Source: a virus | DNA: 20,792 nt | Strand: one strand, 5' to 3' | Virus record (IMG/VR): IMGVR_UViG_3300031650_000011 | Coordinates: 1 to 20,792 of that record | Shown here: positions 1,535-20,192 of the stretch, piece after piece | Position numbering within the stretch: position 1 is the first letter of the stretch | How the letters are laid out: the number at the start of each line of letters is the position of its first letter | The notes under the pieces: generated by a model | Told to the model about the DNA's origin: nothing | Seen by the model: the letters and a program-made list of their open reading frames with translations, nothing else | Databases searched by the model: none | Position numbers and translations under genes: made by a program

Positions 1535-2161
1535 CTACGAGCAGTCTTTCGGGCTAACAGTTATGTAATTTTGTAAGCATTCTTGCGACAGTCGATTATC
1601 TATAATCTTTTTGAGAGATGAATCAACCTCAAAACCTATAAATTTTCTATCAAGTTCTTTACACACTTTTGCGGTAGTTCCTCCACCAACAAAAGGATCA
1701 AGAATTGTGTCGCCATTATTGGTTAAAACTGATATCACTTTTCTAGGAAAACTTGTATTTTGACCCCATGCATGAAACCGTTTATCACGTCCTTTGTCAT
1801 AATGAAGGTTAGCCAACCACTCGAGCCTTTTTGGTTTTCCTTTAGTCATAACAATCACTGGTTTACAACCTACCATAATTTTTTTAGACCAAAAACGAGG
1901 ATACCCACCCATGTGTTTTATTTCAAAAAGCCAAAACCAATCAAGATAAGGTTTCATCAAATCTAAAATTTCAGGTATAAATTGAGCTCCACAATAAGCA
2001 AAAAGATAACTTCCCTCTTTTAATACTCGTTCTCCTTCTCGAGCTAAATCACCGTAAAGATAAATGCAATCTTTAAGATATGGTGGATCAGTTATTATCA
2101 AGTCAATACTGTTTGATGGAAGTTTTGCCATTCCTTCTCGAGCATCTTCAAATGATATCAT
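1535..2161 (-). CDS. Beta-class DNA methyltransferase (N6-adenine or N4-cytosine)
   Basis: 208 residues from the ATG at 2161; a TTG eight codons upstream is possible but less likely. The ATG has GGTGGG about 11 bases before it on the minus strand. The catalytic motif IV is DPPY (IITDPPYLKD, about residue 25-28) and the AdoMet-binding motif I, FVGGGTT followed by GFEVD, lies C-terminal. That motif order is typical of compact beta-class amino-methyltransferases. No restriction nuclease is adjacent, so it is probably an orphan enzyme protecting viral DNA from host restriction. It is transcribed against the head genes, is clearly more AT-rich than they are, and abuts the zinc-ribbon stop with one base between, all consistent with insertion between terL and portal. 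The target sequence cannot be predicted. Confidence 0.9.
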   Translation of the reverse strand: MISFEDAREGMAKLPSNSIDLIITDPPYLKDCIYLYGDLAREGERVLKEGSYLFAYCGAQFIPEILDLMKPYLDWFWLFEIKHMGGYPRFWSKKIMVGCKPVIVMTKGKPKRLEWLANLHYDKGRDKRFHAWGQNTSFPRKVISVLTNNGDTILDPFVGGGTTAKVCKELDRKFIGFEVDSSLKKIIDNRLSQECLQNYITVSPKDCS

Positions 2162-2166
2162 TTTCT

Positions 2167-2193
2167 TTATTTCCCACCAAAACAAATATTCAT
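2167..2193 (-). other. Mini-ORF (8 aa) preceding the DNA methyltransferase
   Basis: On the minus strand an ATG at 2193 has a good GGTGAAT site (2198-2204) and opens an 8-codon frame, MNICFGGK, ending in TAA six bases before the methyltransferase ATG. The GGTGGG site of the methyltransferase lies inside it. It could be a coupled leader peptide, or the remains of the original methyltransferase start after a one-base frameshift in the adjacent T-rich run. The sequence alone cannot decide. Confidence 0.35.
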
Positions 2194-2227
2194 TCTAATT
2201 CACCGTATTACTCTTCATAAACTTACC

Positions 2228-4330: not shown

Positions 4331-4498
4331 ATGAATTGCCCTAAATGTGGAACTGAAATAAAGCCTATAAGTTACCGTTTCACGAAGAGTCTCACCAAGT
4401 CGGGTAACAGCCTCGTAATCACAATCACCGATGAAGTCAAGCAAACACTGAACTTAAAACATGGCGACTTACTGGAAATACAAATCACAAAACAATAA
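4331..4498 (+). CDS. AbrB/SpoVT-like small DNA-binding protein
   Basis: 55 residues. A CPKC knuckle at residues 3-6 precedes a swapped-hairpin AbrB-type segment: LTKSGNSLVITI, then DEVKQTLNLKHGDLLEIQI. This matches the common form of archaeal AbrB regulators and MazE-like antitoxins (T/SKSGNSL..TI, then L.L..GD.LEV). Such proteins bind DNA as dimers. Its own gene contains the 12-mer CACGAAGAGTCT (4381-4392) found beside the promoters of the two cassettes at 12.8 and 14.0 kb, with a TATAAG 16 bases upstream of the core. That this protein binds the 12-mer is only a hypothesis. No toxin partner is evident next to it. Confidence 0.7.
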   Translation: MNCPKCGTEIKPISYRFTKSLTKSGNSLVITITDEVKQTLNLKHGDLLEIQITKQ

Positions 4499-4946: not shown

Positions 4947-5206
4947 ATAGAGCAAAAACCACAAACTTCACCACTAAACCGTTAGTGGACGCCAAAGAAA
5001 TCGAAGCCATAGCAAAAAAGGCGTTACTTAAAGAGGTAGAAGCGGAAATCGAAAGACTAACACATCAAGATGACACACAAAAAGAGATATTGTATATTCT
5101 CAAAGAAATAAGAGAAGTGGTGACCAAAACCAGCGAAGAAAACGCGAAAACAGCTGCAACCAAGTTATTGGTGCTAAACAGAATTAAATATCTATTGGGG
5201 ATGTGA
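4928..5206 (+). CDS. Small coiled-coil protein
   Basis: 92 residues, mostly helical and highly charged, with heptad-like stretches in KEIEAIAKKALLKEVEAEIERL and IREVVTKTSEENAKTAATKLL written here as two segments. It overlaps the MuF-like gene by 19 bases and has GAGG at 4915-4918. Position suggests a minor virion or assembly protein; no family recognised. Confidence 0.7.
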   Translation: MEHPSLNRAKTTNFTTKPLVDAKEIEAIAKKALLKEVEAEIERLTHQDDTQKEILYILKEIREVVTKTSEENAKTAATKLLVLNRIKYLLGM

Positions 5207-6890: not shown

Positions 6891-9107
6891 ATGCCACCCT
6901 ACAAAATCAAAGAATCGTTTAGATGGCTCAGCCCAGAATTCACCTACAACGATGCCCCCGGAGACAAAGTGATAATCAGAGGCACAGCACTGTTTAGCGC
7001 AGAAAAATACTTTGACAAAGGCATAAGCCAAAATATGCGACGCTACGTACAAGACGAACTCTTACGAAGTGCTCGTACCCTAAGAGGCGCATACATTGAT
7101 GTTAACCATGAAATGAGTCAATGGGAGGAAACAGGCAAACACGGACGAAAACCCACCCTGAAAGGACATGTACTCTTCGGCGAAGAAGAAGAAGGCACCA
7201 TAGAATACGTCGCTGAAGTAAACCACTCTGAGTACACCCAAAAAATACGCGACACCGACAAAGTGAGAAACGGGACACTCTCTGAAGAAGCATACACTAA
7301 CAAATGGGGCGTAAAACCCCTATTAGGCGTCAGCGTAGACGCAACCTTCAATCACCTACAATGCAAAATTTGTGGACAAAAATTCTATGACCCCAAAAAA
7401 TTTGAAGAACACATGATAAATGAAGAACACATAAAAAACTTCAAATGGGAACCACGACAAATCGCCTTTAAAGGTCTCAGCATTGTAGAACCCCCAGCAC
7501 AACCCGGAGTAAGTGGGGCAAATTTTGAAATTGTAGAAACAAGCCAAAAAGGCTTTTCACAGTTACTGGAAACGGTAATAAAAACAGCAAAGGAAAAAGA
7601 AACCATGAAAACCGCAGAAAAGAAAGGCGTACCCTACCTAATCAAAGAACAGGACGAAACCCCGCCTGAACCAGAAAAAGACGAGCATGGATGCGGACCC
7701 GACGAAGAATGGGACGGAACAAAATGTGTACCCAAAAAAGAGGAACCCACAGCCACAGAACAGGCAACCCCAGCCCCCAACACAGGCACACAATCTGAAG
7801 GCGAACCAGAAAAGCTAACCTGCCCAGAAGGATTCCACCTAGTCACCGACGATCAAGGCAACCAAACCTGCGAAGCAGACCTGCCGCCCCCGCCAATCGA
7901 CAAACCCACAGCCACAGAAGCAGACGCCAACCCAGTACAACCCGCAGTGTCCACTCAAGTAGCGCCACAAGCAGAAGACGGCGTCGTAGTAACGGTTACA
8001 GACACCCAATCCCCCTGCCCGACTGGACAGCACCGCGACCCAACCACTGGACTATGCATCGCAGACGACGCGATTGTTGAGCCGCCCCCAAACATTGCGA
8101 CAGAAGCCGTCAAGTTGCCGCGAATCCTAAAACTGGGCGAACCCTTCGCAGGCTACAAGAACATGGATGACTGTATAGCCAAGAACCCTGATAAGGAAGA
8201 CCCCGCAGCCTACTGCGCCACCATCATGCGTAAAGTCGAAGGCGACAAAGCAAGCGAAATCAAAGAATCAAAGGACATCTACGAGACACAGCAAACTCTC
8301 ACCAAGAAACTGCAGGAAATCGACACAAGAGGCTACGCAAGAGACGCACAGCTGGCAACATCAATCAACAGCGTCAACCGAGCGGCAGCCGCCAACTATA
8401 GGCAGGCAGTCAACGTTCTAAACCACGTCAACGCCATAGCAGAAAAAACCCTGACAGACACCAAGAAACTGACCCGAAACGTGGAATCCGCAGCCAACCA
8501 TAACCTGCTCGCAGAAACCAAGAAACTGCGAGCCTCAGACACAATGTTGCAGAGCCAAATCAAAGAAGTCACAGCAACATCCACGAAAAACCATCAGCAA
8601 CTGCAGAGCCAAATCATAGAGGCAACAGAAGCCGCCACGAAGAGCCATAAGCAACTGCAGGAGTACACCACAGCCCAAATCAGCAAACTAGCCACGTCGA
8701 CGGCGAAGGAACTGCAGACTCTTCGTAAAGCAAACCCGCAGACCATCAAGGAGATGCAACAGTTAAGACATGAGATAGAGGAAACCAAGCAGTTGGCGAC
8801 ACAACAGAAAAAAGACTTCGAAACCATACTCGCAACCGCAGACAAAACAGTCGAAAACCTGCAGGAACAAGTGAAAACCCTAGAGGAATGGAAGGCAACC
8901 CAAGAGAAGCAACTGACAGAAACCCAAAAGAAAGAAAAAGACAAGAAAACCCAGCAGGACACAATCAAGGAGGCGCTTGAGCCACTGCAAACCCAAATCA
9001 GCAACCTCGAAGCCAAACTGCACGGCAACTTCAAACAAACCCACAAAACCCCGCCAAACGAAGAGTCAGCCGACGACTCAGACCAACTGCCATACGACAG
9101 CGACTAA
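6891..9107 (+). CDS. Prohead protease fused to scaffold-like coiled coil, with zinc finger
   Basis: 738 residues. The N-terminal 200 resemble herpes/HK97-type prohead proteases: VNHE with His near 73 and GVSVDA with Ser near 148 as catalytic candidates. A C2H2 finger (CKIC at 158-161, His 174 and 180) lies within or just after this domain. A Pro/Glu-rich linker holds three short two-Cys loops (about 268-279, 312-327 and 379-391), then a segment GYKNMDDCIAKN..YCATIMRKV typical of viral head proteins. The final 270 residues are a long coiled coil rich in K, Q and E. Position just before cement and capsid genes fits a protease plus internal scaffold in one chain. Cleavage and the exact catalytic triad are inferred. 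Confidence 0.75.
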   Translation: MPPYKIKESFRWLSPEFTYNDAPGDKVIIRGTALFSAEKYFDKGISQNMRRYVQDELLRSARTLRGAYIDVNHEMSQWEETGKHGRKPTLKGHVLFGEEEEGTIEYVAEVNHSEYTQKIRDTDKVRNGTLSEEAYTNKWGVKPLLGVSVDATFNHLQCKICGQKFYDPKKFEEHMINEEHIKNFKWEPRQIAFKGLSIVEPPAQPGVSGANFEIVETSQKGFSQLLETVIKTAKEKETMKTAEKKGVPYLIKEQDETPPEPEKDEHGCGPDEEWDGTKCVPKKEEPTATEQATPAPNTGTQSEGEPEKLTCPEGFHLVTDDQGNQTCEADLPPPPIDKPTATEADANPVQPAVSTQVAPQAEDGVVVTVTDTQSPCPTGQHRDPTTGLCIADDAIVEPPPNIATEAVKLPRILKLGEPFAGYKNMDDCIAKNPDKEDPAAYCATIMRKVEGDKASEIKESKDIYETQQTLTKKLQEIDTRGYARDAQLATSINSVNRAAAANYRQAVNVLNHVNAIAEKTLTDTKKLTRNVESAANHNLLAETKKLRASDTMLQSQIKEVTATSTKNHQQLQSQIIEATEAATKSHKQLQEYTTAQISKLATSTAKELQTLRKANPQTIKEMQQLRHEIEETKQLATQQKKDFETILATADKTVENLQEQVKTLEEWKATQEKQLTETQKKEKDKKTQQDTIKEALEPLQTQISNLEAKLHGNFKQTHKTPPNEESADDSDQLPYDSD

Positions 9108-9723: not shown

Positions 9724-10875
9724 ATGACAATGAACCTGAAAGAAATCCTAGACGCAACCAAACCAAACCGCCAAGCAATCGGACGCTGCATGGAACAGAC
9801 AAAACCGTTCTTCCACCCCGAAGACGCAAGCATCTACACGGGACTTAAACAGCAACAGCAAAACGACATCCAAGAATACCTAACCAAAATCCCACTCAAA
9901 CGGCTAGTCGAAAAACTGGCAAGAGAAGACCCAAGCCTAAAAGAGTACCTCGGACACAGCGGAGCACTAACCACAGGAGCCACAGGAGAAGCAGGAGCCA
10001 ACTACCTGCTGCCCGACAAAATCTACGCTGAACTCTTCGAAAACGCAAGATGCGCAGACATCACCCCAATCGTCAGCAACGTCGTAGACACGCCCGGAGC
10101 AACACTTAAAATCGACGTAGAAAAAGACGGCACATTCAAGCCCCACTTCGGAGCATCAGGTGGAGAAGCGCCAGACGAAACAATAGAAACCGCGCAGGGC
10201 ACCATCACCCCAAGACTCTTCAGCATCAACATAGGCGTAACCAACGAAATGATAGAAGACAGCCTCTTCGACCAGATGGAAACACACGTCAGAATCGCAG
10301 GCAAAGCTATGGGCGAATGGAGCACCAAAATGTGCCTCTTCCCCATCATGGAAGACCACAGAGGAACAACAACCACATTCAGGGTCGAAGGCGATTACAA
10401 CGGCGTGAACAGCGGAGGTGCAACAACCTTTGACATCTCAGACGTGCTAGAGGCAGAAGGCGCAAATTCAACAGACGGATTCGACACGACACACCTGATC
10501 ATACCCCCACACGGACCACAAACGCTATTGTTGGGAGCCGCAGGCTACCCGCACGACTGGACAAAACTGAAAGACGTAGTCAACCTATCCAACAACCCCA
10601 TAGCAAACATCTGCGGAATCGACGTAGTCAGAGTCAAACACATAACCACATCCGACACAAGCGACGAAACAAGCTACATCGCCGGACTCTACGCCACAAC
10701 CTGGCACGCACTTGCAGTCAACAAAACCTACGGCATCCAAACCGTCAGGAAGCGGTGGCTCAAAATCGAAAACTACAGCGACCCCATCAGAGACTTGGTC
10801 GGCGCAGTCGTATCCGCACGGCAGGGACACCTAGTAGCCTACGCAGACGCATGCTGTGTAATCAACTACGCATAA
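9724..10875 (+). CDS. Major capsid protein 1 (HK97 fold)
   Basis: 383 residues. The N-terminal 75 are helical and charged, like a delta/scaffold region; GALTTGATGEAGANYLLP marks the start of the capsid body. Conserved pieces include TNEMIEDSLFDQ near the spine helix and RKRWLKIENYSDPIRDL near the C-terminus. AGGAGATGA at 9709-9717 precedes the ATG. It is paralogous along its whole length to the next gene. Order after protease and cement makes the capsid call strong; which paralogue dominates the shell is unknown. Confidence 0.85.
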   Translation: MTMNLKEILDATKPNRQAIGRCMEQTKPFFHPEDASIYTGLKQQQQNDIQEYLTKIPLKRLVEKLAREDPSLKEYLGHSGALTTGATGEAGANYLLPDKIYAELFENARCADITPIVSNVVDTPGATLKIDVEKDGTFKPHFGASGGEAPDETIETAQGTITPRLFSINIGVTNEMIEDSLFDQMETHVRIAGKAMGEWSTKMCLFPIMEDHRGTTTTFRVEGDYNGVNSGGATTFDISDVLEAEGANSTDGFDTTHLIIPPHGPQTLLLGAAGYPHDWTKLKDVVNLSNNPIANICGIDVVRVKHITTSDTSDETSYIAGLYATTWHALAVNKTYGIQTVRKRWLKIENYSDPIRDLVGAVVSARQGHLVAYADACCVINYA

Positions 10876-10960: not shown

Positions 10961-12085
10961 ATGTTAAACATAAAAGAAGCAGTAGACAAAACGCGACCAC
11001 AACTAGCCAAAACAAAAGAATTCATGGAACAGCACAACTACTTCGACCCCCAACAATGCAACATCTACGCTGGACTCAAACGCAGCACACAACGCGAACT
11101 CTCAGAAACCCTACACAAATGCACGCTCCGCGACCTACTGAAGGGACTAAGCAAACGCGAACTAAAAGGACTCAAAGAGTTTCTGCCAACCGCAGGCGGA
11201 CTAACCACAGGATCGCTCGGCACCGCAGGCGCACAGTACCTAGTTCCCACATGGATGAGCCAGAAACTGTACGCAGCAAGCACAGGTACAGACATCGTGC
11301 CCCTAATCAGCGCAGACGTGTTTGAACCCAGAGGCGGCGACTGCACAGTCCCCATTGGCGTACTAGCCACCCAACAACTAGGCGAAGGAACAGTGGCACA
11401 TGAAACAGTCGACGCAGACGCTGCAACAATAAAGCTGGTGAAAATCAGCGCCCCCATAGTCGCAACCAACGAGATGATAGAGGACACCGAGTACGGCTTA
11501 ATCGAATGGCACATACAGAAGGCAGGCGAAGCCATGGGACGCACAGGCGGAAACCTAGCCCTCAATGTCCTAAAAACAGCCACAGACGGTTACGGTACAG
11601 TAGTAACTGGAGCGGCAAGTGCTTCTGAAACAAAACCAAACGAAATACTGGATATGTTCGAGGAAGTAAGCCGAGGGGACAGCGTCATCCAACCAGTCTG
11701 CGACACCATGATAATCACTCCAGAAGCATGGAGCCACAGCGCGTCAGGCGTAGAAGTGGCAGGAGGAACAGCAGGAGACTTCTGGAGAGGCGAACCAATC
11801 ACCCAACGAAGTCCCGCACAAGGATTTACCCTTGTCTACCACGGCATGGACACGCTATTCAGTGGATCAACAAGTATATGCACAGGCGGCGGAGGCGCAG
11901 CCATGACAGAATGCAAAACTATAGTGTTCGACAGAAAGCAAGCCATGGTGACTGCACGCAAGAACTGGCTCAGAATCGAAGACTACAGCAACCCAGTCAT
12001 GGACTTGGCGGGCGCAATCGTTTCTGGCAGACAGGACAGCGTCACGGTTGTAGACTGCGCGATCGGAGTGGTGACAGAGGCATAA
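10961..12085 (+). CDS. Major capsid protein 2 (HK97 fold), paralogue of MCP1
   Basis: 374 residues. It matches MCP1 block by block: IYAGLK against IYTGLK, GGLTTGSLGTAGAQYLVP against the same region, TNEMIED followed by H...AG.AMG, and RKNWLRIEDYSNP..DL against RKRWLKIENYSDP..DL. This is a tandem duplication that has diverged well. Separated from MCP1 by a hairpin and its own promoter-like sequence. It may form a second shell component (for instance pentons) or a minor variant; degeneration is not evident, as the frame is complete and the motifs are retained. Confidence 0.85.
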   Translation: MLNIKEAVDKTRPQLAKTKEFMEQHNYFDPQQCNIYAGLKRSTQRELSETLHKCTLRDLLKGLSKRELKGLKEFLPTAGGLTTGSLGTAGAQYLVPTWMSQKLYAASTGTDIVPLISADVFEPRGGDCTVPIGVLATQQLGEGTVAHETVDADAATIKLVKISAPIVATNEMIEDTEYGLIEWHIQKAGEAMGRTGGNLALNVLKTATDGYGTVVTGAASASETKPNEILDMFEEVSRGDSVIQPVCDTMIITPEAWSHSASGVEVAGGTAGDFWRGEPITQRSPAQGFTLVYHGMDTLFSGSTSICTGGGGAAMTECKTIVFDRKQAMVTARKNWLRIEDYSNPVMDLAGAIVSGRQDSVTVVDCAIGVVTEA

Positions 12086-12467: not shown

Positions 12468-12760
12468 TAATGCCAATAGCTTTGGAAGATTCTGAAATAC
12501 AGGATGGCGACGTAACACTTCCATTACTTGACGAAGAGTCTACTGATGAAGTTCCTGAAAAAGCAAGCACCGCCAAAACAGAAACCACAGAACAACCCGT
12601 CGAGGAACCCAAAGTCGCGTTCGTTGACGAAACCACCAAACTGCTCAATCTGCTGGGCGAAGCTCCGCCTGTGCCCCTGATTCTATCGATAGAGGACGCG
12701 GTCAAGTTCGTTGACAGGTACAGAGTGTGGAAACTGAAAGTCAAGGCAGAAACTGGCTAA
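12413..12760 (+). CDS. Acidic hypothetical protein, possible head accessory
   Basis: 115 residues from the ATG at 12413, chosen over an in-frame ATG at 12389 because GGAGGTGA at 12395-12402 sits ten bases before it. A lysine-rich start (MVSKKKVTKKD) leads into an acidic, disordered middle (LLDEESTDEVPEKAS) and a C-terminal helical segment (SIEDAVKFVDRYRVWKLKV). The DEES codons contain one copy of the ACGAAGAGTC word (12531-12540). Small genes after MCP often encode head-completion proteins, but this one does not match one I know. Confidence 0.6.
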   Translation: MVSKKKVTKKDAGTAEKIVMPIALEDSEIQDGDVTLPLLDEESTDEVPEKASTAKTETTEQPVEEPKVAFVDETTKLLNLLGEAPPVPLILSIEDAVKFVDRYRVWKLKVKAETG

Positions 12761-12766
12761 AGAAAT

Positions 12767-12775
12767 CTTAAATAC
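12767..12775 (+). promoter_or_regulatory. TATA-like box of cassette 1
   Basis: CTTAAATAC lies just after the stop of the preceding gene. The CACGAAGAGTCT word follows with about the same spacing as in cassette 2. Typical archaeal spacing would put the start near 12795. Confidence 0.5.
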
Positions 12776-12780
12776 TAAAT

Positions 12781-12999
12781 CCACGAAGAGTCTATGGTGG
12801 TGAATCAATGTGACTGAGGGTGAATTTTTACGACAATGGGCTGAACTTAGAAATTCAACATTGGACATGCAAACCGCATTAGTAATGATTCTTTCAAACC
12901 TTGAAAGAGACTTAAAAAAAGCGGCAATGACAGACTTTGAAACAGGCACCTATGGTGCAACCATGAAAACAATCAAGTACTGGTTTGGTGACTCTTCGT
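12781..12999. repeat. Cassette 1, bounded by inverted repeats
   Basis: ACGAAGAGTC at 12783-12792 and its inverse GACTCTTCGT at 12990-12999 bound a small ORF. The right end shares a 21-bp identical block with cassette 2 (12979-12999 and 14301-14321). The left 45 bases are also near-identical to those of cassette 2 (12781 onward against 14033 onward), whereas the interior has diverged. Confidence 0.75.
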
Positions 13000-13022
13000 C
13001 AAATGTAAAGATTCTTGGATAA
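12810..13022 (+). CDS. Small cassette protein 1 (70 aa)
   Basis: GTG start with GGTGA at 12799-12803. The chain begins V-TEGEF and reaches WFGDSS near its end, then runs seven residues further (SNVKILG). The same ends, V-DEGEL and WFGDSS, occur in the cassette 2 protein, where the stop follows directly. The middle is helical and charged (LSNLERDLKKAAM). No known domain recognised. A TATA-like box and ribosome site support expression. Function unknown; it precedes a 34-aa ORF and the glycosyltransferase. Confidence 0.6.
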   Translation: MTEGEFLRQWAELRNSTLDMQTALVMILSNLERDLKKAAMTDFETGTYGATMKTIKYWFGDSSSNVKILG

Positions 13023-13042
13023 GTCTACTTGATTGGTCAAAA

Positions 13043-13147
13043 ATGAAAAACACTTGGAACAAAATCCCACCAGACAAACAGAAAATAATCCTGAAAGAAG
13101 GGTACTGGAGCAAAGGAAAAGGAATATTCGATGAAGACTCTTCGTAG
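13043..13147 (+). CDS. Very short ORF (34 aa) ending in the repeat
   Basis: MKNTWNKIPPDKQ to GIFDEDSS, closing with the inverse word (13136-13145) and a TAG in the same frame as in the other cassettes (GAC TCT TCG). Its upstream AGTCTAC...GGTCAAAAATG loosely resembles the cassette leader. It ends nine bases before the glycosyltransferase ATG. It may be a reduced third member of the series; real translation is uncertain. Confidence 0.4.
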   Translation: MKNTWNKIPPDKQKIILKEGYWSKGKGIFDEDSS

Positions 13148-13156
13148 GTTCTTATC

Positions 13157-14011
13157 ATGACTCAGCAAATCGAAAAACAACCCCAACAGCAAAAACAGAA
13201 ACATTCCCGCATCTTCATAGGCATACCAACTGGCCCTCCGAAATTATACAGCACCTACATCATGGTAGCCGCACTCGCAAACCTCGACTACGACAACTAC
13301 GAAATCCATTGGGCAGTCACAGGAGGATACGACAACAAGCTCTTCGGCGACTTCAAACGTAGACTCAAAAAACTCAACGAAGCAGTCAAATGGCCCGACA
13401 ACGTCACATGGCACATTCACTACGTGCCACTCAGCAAAAAGGAGCGCATGACCCGATACCAGCCCATCCTCAGAAACAAAACAGTCCTCAGAGACGCCTT
13501 CCTAGACACCGACATCCCCTACTTCCTGCTGCTGGGCGGAGACAACCCGCCCCCACGCAACGCCATCCACAGATTACAGAAAGCCGACGCGGACATCAGC
13601 ATCGGACTCTGCTACCAGCGCCCAAACGTAGACCAAAGATGCGGCACCTACCCGCTTGTGTGGCGCTACGCATGGATGCCGCAGGAGCTAGAGAAGTTCA
13701 AAGACGAGCTTGACCCGCTTGTGCTGGATGAGCTTCGGCTGGCATGGCTCCACTGCCCCGTCATGATTCCCCTCATGTTCGACCCAAACTGGAAACGCAA
13801 ACGGACAGTCTGGGGCATCACAGGCGGCGACGGCTGCGCCCTAATCAAGCGCAGGGTGCTGGAGATGATTGACTGGGGCGTCACGCCCGACAACGCGTAC
13901 CACAGCGAAGACATCCACTTCATGACTCTAGCGCTGTGGCACGGCTTCACAACAGCCTGCGCCGTAGACTTGCACATTCCACACTTCGACCCAGACGGCA
14001 AAGCATACTAA
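13157..14011 (+). CDS. GT-A-type glycosyltransferase
   Basis: 284 residues. After a Q/K-rich start, IFIGIPTGPP opens a Rossmann-like nucleotide-binding half; FLLLGGDNPPP takes the place of the GT-A DxD region near residue 125; GGDGCALIKRRVLE and SEDIHFMTLALWHGF resemble acceptor-side motifs of family-2-like enzymes, with a late D..IPHFD. It would transfer a sugar from a nucleotide donor, perhaps to virion proteins or host surface glycans. No signal peptide or membrane segment, so cytoplasmic. It follows a cassette directly and starts MTQ, as does the radical SAM gene after cassette 2. Donor and acceptor cannot be inferred. Confidence 0.8.
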   Translation: MTQQIEKQPQQQKQKHSRIFIGIPTGPPKLYSTYIMVAALANLDYDNYEIHWAVTGGYDNKLFGDFKRRLKKLNEAVKWPDNVTWHIHYVPLSKKERMTRYQPILRNKTVLRDAFLDTDIPYFLLLGGDNPPPRNAIHRLQKADADISIGLCYQRPNVDQRCGTYPLVWRYAWMPQELEKFKDELDPLVLDELRLAWLHCPVMIPLMFDPNWKRKRTVWGITGGDGCALIKRRVLEMIDWGVTPDNAYHSEDIHFMTLALWHGFTTACAVDLHIPHFDPDGKAY

Positions 14012-14017
14012 CAAAGA

Positions 14018-14026
14018 TTTTATAAG
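14018..14026 (+). promoter_or_regulatory. TATA box of cassette 2
   Basis: TTTATAAGC, seven bases after the glycosyltransferase stop, is a good archaeal TATA box. CACGAAGAGTCT follows at 14034-14045, between the box and the expected start near 14047. Confidence 0.6.
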
Positions 14027-14032
14027 CGATTG

Positions 14033-14321
14033 CCACGAAGAGTCTACCAGTGGTGAGTCAACGTGGATGAGGGAGAACTAAAAAAGCGAATAGAAGCAAA
14101 TTTTGGCAATAATCTTGAAATGATACTTAGAGAAATTCCTGACTTACAAAATAATATTAAATTTGCTGGAAGTAAACTGAAAAAATATGCTCTTGGAATG
14201 TGTTTTATCAAGATTGACTTGGCAAAAAAAGAATTCCCAAATTTTGATGATTTTAATGATATAATTAGTGGAAATGCACGAGCACAAGCATGGTTCATTA
14301 ACTGGTTTGGTGACTCTTCGT
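14033..14321. repeat. Cassette 2, bounded by inverted repeats
   Basis: ACGAAGAGTC at 14035-14044 and its inverse at 14312-14321. Left and right ends match cassette 1 as described there. The right repeat overlaps the start codon of the radical SAM gene (GTG at 14320). Confidence 0.75.
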
Positions 14322-14323
14322 GA
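14063..14323 (+). CDS. Small cassette protein 2 (86 aa)
   Basis: GTG start with GGTGAG at 14052-14057. It is AT-rich and helical, beginning V-DEGELKKRIEANFG and ending INWFGDSS at the stop. Ends match cassette protein 1, but the middle is different and longer (a hydrophobic YALGMCFIKIDL segment). The TGA stop overlaps the GTG of the radical SAM gene, which implies translational coupling. No known domain recognised; a small regulator is one possibility. Confidence 0.6.
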   Translation: MDEGELKKRIEANFGNNLEMILREIPDLQNNIKFAGSKLKKYALGMCFIKIDLAKKEFPNFDDFNDIISGNARAQAWFINWFGDSS

Positions 14324-15258
14324 CTCAAACCGTAGAGCAGATGAGTTTCGAGGAATTCATCGATAACCCCCCCTTCCCTAGATTTGTTCAATTTGAAACA
14401 AGCACAATTTGTAACGCACGGTGCCTCATGTGCCCACACGACAAAATGAAGAAACGTCCACAAGCGCCGTGGAGTCTAATCTCAAAGATAATCCGCGAAG
14501 TCGCACCCAAAGTCGACGCGGTCTGCCCCTTCCTCATGCAGGACCCCACACTCGAACCCCGCCTAGTCCCAATCCTAGCCAACATCAAACAACGCAACCC
14601 AGCCTGTCAGACAATCGTCTACAGCAACATGAACCACCTCCCCGACGCAACAATCAAAGGCATAGTAGACACACAAATCCTCGACGAACTCCACATCAGC
14701 TTCTACGGACCAACCGAAGAACTATACAGGAAATGGCAGCCCCCACTAAACCGAGAACGCACAATCATCAACATCAAAAAATTTTACCTCTACAGGCAAC
14801 TAACCAAACGACTCAAACCAAAAATAACCCTGCACGTACTATCTGTGCCAGAAATCATGGACGCAATAGCAGGATACGGCGACGTCACAAGCTACGTCGA
14901 CAGCGTCGCAAACGTGCAGTACGACACCTTCCACGGCGACATCCCAGACCTAGCAGGCGACCAAACACGATACATGGGCAAGCCAGCCCCGCGTGTGCCC
15001 TGCCAGCGACTGTGGACGGGAATGAACATCCACTCAAACGGCAACGTGGTGCCCTGCTGCATCGACTACAACGACGAACACGTCCTCGGCAACGTAATCG
15101 AACAATCAGCAGAGAAAATGTGGAACAGCCTCGAATTCGCCAAATTCAGGAAACTGCACACAGAGGGCAGATGGAACGAAATCCCCATGTGCAGACGCTG
15201 CAGAGTACACGAGTACCAATTCAACAAAGGGTGGGTTGATTGGTGGACGAAAAAATAA
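14320..15258 (+). CDS. Radical SAM/SPASM enzyme
   Basis: 312 residues from the GTG overlapping the cassette stop. The N-terminal core has the radical SAM cluster motif CNARCLMC (CxxxCxxC, near residues 29-36) and an ELHISFYG strand. A SPASM-type C-terminus shows VPCQRLW, GNVVPCCIDY, LGNVIEQSAEKMWNS and MCRRCRVHEY, ligands for an extra iron-sulfur cluster. SPASM proteins commonly modify peptides or proteins (thioether or C-C crosslinks, epimerisation) or act on small metabolites. A peptide substrate could be one of the small neighbouring proteins, but that is speculation. Rare in virion-gene neighbourhoods; A/C-biased codons match the structural genes, so it has been resident for some time. 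Confidence 0.9.
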   Translation: MTQTVEQMSFEEFIDNPPFPRFVQFETSTICNARCLMCPHDKMKKRPQAPWSLISKIIREVAPKVDAVCPFLMQDPTLEPRLVPILANIKQRNPACQTIVYSNMNHLPDATIKGIVDTQILDELHISFYGPTEELYRKWQPPLNRERTIINIKKFYLYRQLTKRLKPKITLHVLSVPEIMDAIAGYGDVTSYVDSVANVQYDTFHGDIPDLAGDQTRYMGKPAPRVPCQRLWTGMNIHSNGNVVPCCIDYNDEHVLGNVIEQSAEKMWNSLEFAKFRKLHTEGRWNEIPMCRRCRVHEYQFNKGWVDWWTKK

Positions 15259-15740
15259 ACAAGTGCCGTCAATGTGGTGTAGTTCTAGTTAAAGATGTAA
15301 ATTGGTTTAAGTCTTTCGTAGATAAAAAACACGGAAGATATTATTTGTGTAAACAATGTGCAATTGAATCCTCTAGAAAATGGCGACTAGAAAACCCAGA
15401 AAGAGTTAATTTTTTGCAAAGTCGCAACCATCATAAAAAAATTCAAAAATACAGAAAACTGATTTTAGATTTATTAGGAAACAAATGTAATAATCCAACT
15501 TGCCCCATTTCACCTGAAAAGTTAGATAAAAGAGCTTTACATATTGACCATGTTAACGGTGGAGCATATCAAAAGGGGAGAAGAATAAATTCTGGTAGGT
15601 ACCCTCAATATCTTAAAAAAGTCTACAATGAGTTAAAAAACGGTTCAAAAGATTATCAACTATTATGCGCTTATTGTAATTGGATGAAACGATTTAAAAA
15701 TAACGAATTACCTACACCAAGGTGTAAAAAAGGTGGCTAA
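15240..15740 (+). CDS. HNH homing-type endonuclease
   Basis: 166 residues counted from the TTG at 15240; the GTG at 15243 is the alternative start. Two CxxC knuckles at the front (CRQCG, CKQC) precede a basic helical linker (NFLQSRNHHKKIQKYRK), then the HNH core: LHIDHVNGG and LLCAYCNWMKR, with a structural CNNPTC. It overlaps the radical SAM stop and the next gene. It is AT-rich unlike either neighbour, so it is likely an inserted mobile nuclease. Confidence 0.88.
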   Translation: MVDEKINKCRQCGVVLVKDVNWFKSFVDKKHGRYYLCKQCAIESSRKWRLENPERVNFLQSRNHHKKIQKYRKLILDLLGNKCNNPTCPISPEKLDKRALHIDHVNGGAYQKGRRINSGRYPQYLKKVYNELKNGSKDYQLLCAYCNWMKRFKNNELPTPRCKKGG

Positions 15741-18534: not shown

Positions 18535-19176
18535 ATGTACACACCACTAAAACTGTTTTGGCAAATAACCATAACGGATACTAAAACAGGAAAAATAATC
18601 AGAAGAACACGCAAGCGATTAAGTCATAGTTTTGTTAAACAGTTCTTGCAGTTACTAGAATTTAGTTTTAGACATGCATGGGGAGGAGCAGGTGATACCG
18701 TAAACATTATAGATACAGGTAACACATCGAGAGCAGCGGCAATGGATACTATGAATAGTGCTACCACTGCTGTACCGCGTTATTTTTTTGCTGTAGACGC
18801 ACCAGAAGACGACGACACTTATGGAATAGTCGTTGGCAGTGACAACACTGCAGAAGACAATACCGATTACAAACTGAATACACAAATCGCTGATGGTGCA
18901 GCCGCTGGAGAACTTGATTACACCTCACACACTTGGGTAACTTCAGCAGTTGTAGGCGCAAACGTGGACTTCCAAATACAAAGACCCTTCATCAACAACA
19001 GCGGCGGAAATGTGACAATAGAAGAATGTGGCATATACTTGAAAACGTGGTGTGTTAGCGGGTCAACAATGGTTACCGGATATATTTTCTGTATTGTCCG
19101 TGACACCACAGGAACCGTCACTGTAGCAGATGGGCAAACCGCCACGGTAGACTACACATTCAGAACCACGGTGTAG
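18535..19176 (+). CDS. Tail-associated hypothetical virion protein
   Basis: 213 residues with GGAGATGA upstream. RLSHSFVKQFLQLLEF starts an N-terminal helix; then DDDTYGIVVGSDN, DYKLNTQIADGAAAGELDY and IQRPFINNSGGNVTIEECGIYLK, ending in GQTATVDYTFRTTV. This arrangement is familiar from uncharacterised virion proteins of tailed viruses. It sits between two paralogous neck genes. Probably structural; exact location unknown. Confidence 0.5.
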   Translation: MYTPLKLFWQITITDTKTGKIIRRTRKRLSHSFVKQFLQLLEFSFRHAWGGAGDTVNIIDTGNTSRAAAMDTMNSATTAVPRYFFAVDAPEDDDTYGIVVGSDNTAEDNTDYKLNTQIADGAAAGELDYTSHTWVTSAVVGANVDFQIQRPFINNSGGNVTIEECGIYLKTWCVSGSTMVTGYIFCIVRDTTGTVTVADGQTATVDYTFRTTV

Positions 19177-19570: not shown

Positions 19571-19612
19571 ATGGTTTACGACGCAAGAAACAGGACAAAA
19601 ACTACACATTGA
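19571..19612 (+). pseudogene. Broken 5' copy of the gene at 20243
   Basis: MVYDARNRTKTTH followed by TGA. The first ten codons parallel MVYDPRQRTK of the gene at 20243, with about 24 of the first 30 bases identical. Similarity stops where the minus-strand HNH gene ends (its stop is at 19602-19604). This is the left-hand remnant of the interrupted target. Confidence 0.65.
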
Positions 19613-20192
19613 TTGAATTGACAGTTAATCCAGTATGACATTGTTGACAAACCGTAATCACATTTAATGGTTCTGCATAGTTTTCATGATGATGTTGTAA
19701 TCTATGTTCTGAACCGCAAACTTCACAATTAGATATGATAGGATAATAATAGTTTGCTTGATTGATTGCAAACCGCATTTCTTTCTTATTTGTCATGTAC
19801 TCACGATGGAGTTTGTTGACCTTGTCTTTATTATTTGTACAATAAATTTTTCTATAATCTAACATTTTGTCTCTATTCTTGTAATAGTACTCTTTTGCCT
19901 TTACTTTCTCTTTGGCTTTCACCATTGGATCTAATCGGCACTTACGCATACGCAATTTTGTTTGCTCTTTATACCTATCAGGATTCTTACGATAATATTC
20001 TCTTGTGCGAGAAATGCACTCTTTTCGATGTTTGCGATAATATTCACGATCACGTTCTAAACATTCCTCGTAATGTGTTGCTCGATATTTCAGATGTGCC
20101 AATTTTTCCCGTTCCTTAACTTCAGGTCGTTTACGTGCCTCTCGATGATATTCTGCATCATGCCGCCTTCTTTCCTCTTTACTCATCGGCAT
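19602..20192 (-). CDS. HNH endonuclease with basic repeat DNA-binding region
   Basis: 196 residues, ATG with GGAGG upstream on the minus strand. The first 140 residues are basic helices with a repeated REYYRK(H/N) unit and similar KAKEYYYKNRD, likely DNA-gripping. The nuclease core follows: CEVCGSEHRLQHHHENY, then VCQQCHTGL, with two CxxC pairs for zinc and the HHH active region. It is AT-rich and antisense to the neck genes. The broken start copy beside its 3' end identifies it as an inserted mobile nuclease. Confidence 0.9.
   Translation of the reverse strand: MPMSKEERRRHDAEYHREARKRPEVKEREKLAHLKYRATHYEECLERDREYYRKHRKECISRTREYYRKNPDRYKEQTKLRMRKCRLDPMVKAKEKVKAKEYYYKNRDKMLDYRKIYCTNNKDKVNKLHREYMTNKKEMRFAINQANYYYPIISNCEVCGSEHRLQHHHENYAEPLNVITVCQQCHTGLTVNSINV

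Follow-up and report, generated by a model that had tools for sequence, protein, structure and literature searches.

Two short stretches of a viral DNA begin and end alike and have different middles, and the question they raise is what their common ends are for. They lie at 12783-12999 and 14035-14321 of the window, as the whole stretch analysed here is called (20,792 nt, or 20.8 kb; IMG/VR record IMGVR_UViG_3300031650_000011). Their 21-bp right ends, ACTGGTTTGGTGACTCTTCGT, are identical (12979-12999 and 14301-14321), and their left ends align from a TATA-like box through the start of a small ORF, with small indels. Between the ends the DNA is unrelated, with an alignment score reached by 76 of 500 shuffles. 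Their small ORFs (70 and 86 aa) reach the residues WFGDSS, either stopping there or continuing beyond. A first-pass annotation had described them as two cassettes with conserved ends and diverged centres, and that description stands. Each cassette has the 10-letter word ACGAAGAGTC (W) near its left end and the inverse word (W') near its right.

Judging from its sequence, the window is part of the genome of a tailed archaeal virus, a virus of Bathyarchaeota. It contains a terminase (PHROG, 6e-78), a portal, a long coiled-coil ORF and two tandem HK97-type capsid ORFs, and close terminase relatives from whole genomes lie inside Bathyarchaeota MAGs (66% identity to that of locus L139). G001 (IMGVR_UViG_3300031553_000038, 23 kb) shares its main blocks with the window at 96-99% identity and has seven copies of W. 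G005 (IMGVR_UViG_3300031651_000170, loci L021 and L147) has a terminase 79% identical to the window's and no W at all. Additional terminase relatives (L020, L022, L024, L106, and L108) have one to three copies each in the parts examined. Some other features of the window were recorded as well. The capsid ORFs (9724-10875 and 10961-12085) have about 30% mutual identity, and such a tandem pair is also found in L021, L027, L035, L036, and L037; the coiled-coil ORF has a 54-bp tandem duplication (8548-8655, 80% identical); and a second endonuclease-like ORF is found at 19602-20192 on the minus strand (phrog_2340, 1.6e-08).

Comparison of the genomes shows four hypervariable accessory-gene slots, a to d, separated by stable genes, with the two cassettes in slots b and c. 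Except for the W' copies, which are on the minus strand, all features of these two slots are on the plus strand. Slot b opens with a TATA-like box, TTAAATAC (12768-12775), recognized from the sequence and in a scan for TATA boxes followed by W, and W itself lies 7 nt below it (12783-12792, predicted at about -15 to -6; conserved at position 18788 of G001). The Shine-Dalgarno sequence GGTGA (12799-12803) and orf70 (12810-13022) follow. The longer shared motif GGTGARTCAA is mostly this Shine-Dalgarno sequence plus a spacer, with other gene-start copies at 1229 and 17473. W' at the 3' end of orf70 (12990-12999) falls in WFGDSS, after which there are seven more codons. Between this cassette and the next gene is a second cargo ORF, the 34-aa orf34 (13043-13147), which ends EDSS-stop with W' at the stop (13136-13145); homology to G001 resumes at 13155. 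The gene that comes next (13157-14011) is 99% identical in G001 and 37% identical in G005. It had been labelled a glycosyltransferase in the first-pass annotation, for which Pfam, NCBIfam, and PDB sequence profiles give no support, and it is called putative or GT-like here.

In slot c the TATA-like box TTTATAAG (14019-14026) marks the edge of the exchanged segment, with G001 homology stopping at 14024. W lies 8 nt below it (14035-14044), followed by orf86 (14063-14323). The closing W' (14312-14321) does double duty, as the DSS-stop of orf86 and as the spacer and start of the gene that follows (GGTGACTCTTCGTGA). That gene (14320-15258) had been called a radical SAM enzyme, a solid assignment (Pfam SPASM, 3.5e-17; Radical_SAM, 5.9e-07). 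Structure models of the orf86 and GT-like proteins were unusably poor (pLDDT 54 and 38, respectively).

The orf86 product belongs to a small protein family with members in L108 (orf101), G005 (L147:466-681), and L035 (L035:5353-5610), in differing genomic places, sharing the motifs EGELKK..., A[KR]K[ED]FP, and WxxKWFG. A profile search of IMG/VR for further relatives found only the L108 contig. The orf70 product resembles this family only over a final stretch of 12 residues running up to WFGDSS, so that a simple duplication, the alternative raised in the first-pass annotation, is no explanation for the pair; orf70 seems rather to be a different body joined to the same ends.

The slots differ in content from one virus to the next. 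In slot b, orf70 and orf34 are replaced by an unrelated 88-aa ORF (orf88) in G001 and an HNH gene in G005. The orf86 that fills slot c in the window gives way to an HNH gene in G001 and to nothing in G005, where the flanking genes have a stop/start overlap. Slot d, after the radical SAM gene, has an HNH/endonuclease VII-like gene in the window (15240-15740, plus strand) and a 47-aa ORF ending in W' (orf47) in G001, and is again empty in G005. Slot a, flanked by a zinc-ribbon ORF and the portal gene, is on the minus strand and contains a DNA methyltransferase in the window (1535-2185), short ORFs in G001, and a different ORF in L020, all with common ends: TTTATAAG, ATGAAGAGTA, and GGTGAAT in order on the left, and GTTAGCCCGAAAGA... 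with the C-terminus VSPKD[SC]S on the right. The slot a promoter of the window has a W-like sequence, ATGAAGAGT, 8 nt below TTTATAAG (2210-2218, minus strand).

The cassette ends had been proposed to act as recombination borders or as a portable leader bringing accessory genes under a common promoter/coupling arrangement. Different cargo between the same borders and empty sites, the two checks suggested in that annotation, were both found in the relatives; together with the divergence edges near W' described below, they support the first part of this. The second part is contradicted by G005, where the GT-like gene, the radical SAM gene, and the gene after them are in the same order as in the window, although there are no W-cassettes there. 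That this genome has no W, two of the slots empty, and the third occupied by an HNH gene argues that the cargo is the small ORF and that the enzyme genes after it belong to the stable backbone. At the start of the G001 radical SAM gene (L009:12416-12560), beside the HNH insertion, the first codons are replaced or shifted relative to the window, as if the insertion had damaged the gene start.

W is not confined to cassette borders. There are nine exact copies in the window (five forward, four reverse), and the word is spread over promoters, unrelated ORF ends, and the interiors of conserved genes. The most frequent 10-mer in each of 100 dinucleotide-preserving shuffles of the window had only 3-5 copies. 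Allowing one mismatch, 15 copies were found where 1.24 would be expected. The density is about 430 per Mb in the window and 300 per Mb in G001, whereas three Bathyarchaeota MAGs together have 13 copies in 8.4 Mb, or about 1.5 per Mb, which rules out a host word. The 15-mer GGTGACTCTTCGTGA was not found in 257 genomes of the Bathyarchaeota class. A general phage junction is ruled out too: among 64 IMG/VR contigs with this 15-mer, only G001 has more than one W. The right-end 19-mer has no exact IMG/VR match in other viruses, and Rfam gave no match. Nor does every relative have a word of its own, since in other terminase relatives longer than 8 kb no dispersed 10-mer exceeds six copies, and most have 3-4. 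An 11-copy 10-mer in L117 comes from a 12-bp tandem repeat (GACTGAAGCCCA, L117:1283-1472) and is not dispersed like W. GANTC methylation as a driver was rejected for want of enrichment (81 sites observed, 74 expected), as was CTCTTC as a general Shine-Dalgarno spacer, found in just 3 of 183 cases.

The copies fall into three kinds of position. A TATA-like box with W 7-8 nt below it is found at two slots of the window (b and c) and at slot b in G001, and the near copy ATGAAGAGTA lies below such a box at slot a in three genomes; the arrangement is found nowhere else in the sequence of the relatives that was scanned. Slot d has neither a TATA-like box nor a W on its left side. These promoters are putative, and their transcription starts are predictions from TATA spacing; with the usual archaeal spacing, W would be at about -15 to -5.

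The second kind of position is at the ends of ORFs, where W' supplies DSS and the T of the stop codon in at least eight mostly unrelated ORFs. These include orf86 and orf34 in the window; orf88, orf47, and the portal gene in G001 (the last also in L020); and L022 orf101, L024 orf157, L106 orf60, and L108 orf101, the last with no W in its promoter. The codons are GAC TCT TCG without exception, the stops are TGA, TAG, or TAA, and the stop usually runs directly into the next start codon. Members of the orf86 family lacking W' end instead in WFGDK-stop (G005) or WFGGE-stop (L035), which suggests that DSS has been added; in G001 the counterpart of the L024 ORF terminates in GDSQ. A protein tag is disfavoured by the invariant codons and by the presence of the same word in untranslated promoters. 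Elsewhere in L108, a one-mismatch W' (GGGGACTCTTCATGAAAG, L108:8329) serves as the start of an ORF that opens with MKVCVLGLGTIGEP and by eye resembles a nucleotide-sugar dehydrogenase.

The third kind is inside genes. W lies within a short zinc-ribbon/AbrB-like ORF at 4382-4391 (plus strand) and within coding sequence at 9058-9067 and 12531-12540 (plus strand, the latter encoding DEES), both conserved in G001. W' lies within coding sequence at 8717-8726 (minus strand), with no counterpart in G001. In L022 a conserved ParB-methyltransferase-like gene contains both W' and W at a distance of 33 bp, encoding DSS and HEES where the L020 counterpart has DNG and KDED. This ORF (L022:551-1756) is a ParB-like and DNA methyltransferase fusion with homologs in L020, L107, L110, L112, and L120.

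Some copies of W are near points where related genomes diverge. Edges of divergence between G001 and the window lie within 40 bp of four of the six testable G001 copies (p=0.0005), three of them 2-5 bp from a W', and within 40 bp of three of the nine window copies (p=0.013), both figures being confounded with gene starts. Within a 5,965-bp block 99% identical between the two genomes, 19 of the 60 differences fall in a single 55-bp patch (8696-8750) in a 738-aa ORF, centred on the window-only W' at 8717-8726. In L024, W' results from a cluster of three changes, around which the sequence is nearly identical to G001, and a short intergenic insert bearing W' at position 5021 of G001 is missing from L024. 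There is no local divergence around the backbone copies at 9058 and 12531. As the edges coincide with gene starts, W' could be passive there, and with so few genomes its roles as cause and as bystander cannot be separated.

The reading preferred here, although tentatively, is that W is a lineage-specific dispersed cis word at slot promoters and gene junctions, probably binding a regulator, and that the slots turn over by recombination at their borders. A viral or host DNA-binding protein would recognize W; in the slot promoters, where W falls after the TATA box and before the predicted start of transcription, such a protein would govern the slot ORF. Where genes end, W' on the stop/start junction would let an incoming slot gene adopt the shared leader and pass translation on to the next gene. 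Turnover would proceed through recombination at the short shared borders, probably assisted by the HNH endonucleases of the same slots, and W itself may guide the exchange. A point against an operator is that W is found in both orientations relative to genes and within coding sequence, neither of which a simple operator needs. The lack of W on the left of slot d and in the promoter of L108 orf101 also counts against this reading. The only candidate repressor was a weak HTH ORF (L039:1579-1860).

The divergence patterns suggest a different emphasis, in which W is mainly a recombination or gene-conversion word, comparable to Chi or uptake sequences, where exchange begins or resolves, and builds up because W-bearing tracts win. 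This is possible but on balance unlikely. The patch at 8717, the L024 changes, the G001 insert, the paired words present in L022 and absent in L020, and the coincidence of divergence edges with W all fit it. The quiet backbone copies do not, a patch in which W has appeared or disappeared must by definition differ there, and we know of no recombination protein that recognizes W. A fuller version, a genome-wide recombination word peculiar to this archaeal virus lineage, written by small conversion tracts into promoters, gene ends, and coding sequences and directing accessory exchange at fixed slots, seems unlikely; it would give W the role that Chi or uptake words have in directing exchange in cells. 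Alternatively, W and W' might act as RNA, forming a 10-11 bp stem in read-through transcripts, with the small ORF inside it and the next ribosome site masked, such that translation of the small ORF would control the downstream enzyme. Each of the three intact pairs has the W:W' stem in its centroid fold, W' overlaps the Shine-Dalgarno sequence and start of the next gene, and the slot a pair would retain two G-U pairs in G001 and L020. That pair is broken in the window, however, the z-scores are -0.97, -0.90, and -2.60, and W' is found without W at slot d, the portal gene, L024, and L108. Moreover, the predicted starts are downstream of W, so that slot transcripts would lack it, and this explanation appears improbable.

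If the cassettes were moved by a site-specific recombinase or transposase, as integron-, shufflon-, or MITE-like units with W as terminal repeat, inverted W ends flanking unrelated cargo and the tandem W'-ORF-W' at 12990-13145 would be accounted for. The lone copies of W and the varied contexts of W' fit this badly, though; no target-site duplication was found flanking either cassette, and no tyrosine or serine recombinase (PF00589, PF00239) in the window and six relatives, whose records are fragments. It is considered very improbable. An old duplication of a small gene with a conserved C-terminus, combined with viral mosaicism, would make the word a by-product. The orf86 family is a genuine one, with conserved WFG ends, and turnover of HNH genes and small ORFs is common in tailed viruses. 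Such an origin is nevertheless already disfavoured, and seems quite improbable: orf70, orf34, orf88, orf47, the portal gene, and the ORFs ending in W' in L022, L024, and L106 have the word in common and are unrelated in sequence, W is also found in promoters and gene interiors, and the shuffle controls count against a by-product.

Among known systems, that of W is closest to three from phages, yet does not fully match the definition of any. PeSLs (promoter-early stem-loops) are mobile regulatory cassettes of T4-type phages (Arbiol et al., 2010; Comeau et al., 2014; as presented in PMC4503421 and PMC3950731). Like W, itself a putative regulatory sequence, they are short shared sequences at gene junctions around which small genes are shuffled. 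Compared with PeSLs as outlined in those accounts, W is a 10-bp word of an archaeal virus, found in both orientations and also inside genes, and the W slots have no unit of promoter plus terminator hairpin. W and W' are 190-270 nt apart, and the folds contain no compact promoter-adjacent hairpin of the kind that would form an adjacent stem-loop terminator. The start-associated sequences (SAS/ESAS) of Cluster K mycobacteriophages, whose role is unknown, are, like W, asymmetric short words repeated at unrelated gene starts near the ribosome site (PMC3203893). SAS are directly upstream of start codons and nearly all in one orientation, whereas W has five forward and four reverse copies, those at 4382, 8717, 9058, and 12531 lie within ORFs, and others are in promoters and at ORF ends. 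The stoperators and operators of Cluster A mycobacteriophages are asymmetric genome-wide sites, including at a promoter (PMC9283540, PMC6550527). W likewise has copies at predicted promoters with TATA-like boxes and others dispersed, although its orientation is mixed and no repressor was found. The density of W is similar to that of stoperators.

Two other kinds of element share some of its properties. DNA uptake sequences and Chi-like words are enriched asymmetric 8-12-mers, in both orientations, in and between genes, and tied to recombination; they are known from cellular genomes, however, and W has no demonstrated uptake or RecBCD-type partner. Free-standing homing endonuclease insertions are known in tailed phages, and HNH genes fill the same slots in other relatives here, but the W cassettes have no endonuclease.

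The means by which tailed viruses, without a recombinase, acquire and shed small genes at set positions are still debated, and little is known of the viruses of uncultured archaea. W looks like a signal for control or exchange, and since a single 10-bp word marks the borders, ideas about both exchange and regulation can be tested culture-free, in metagenomic reads and transcriptomes. If W is an operator, it would offer a handle on gene control in the viruses of Bathyarchaeota.
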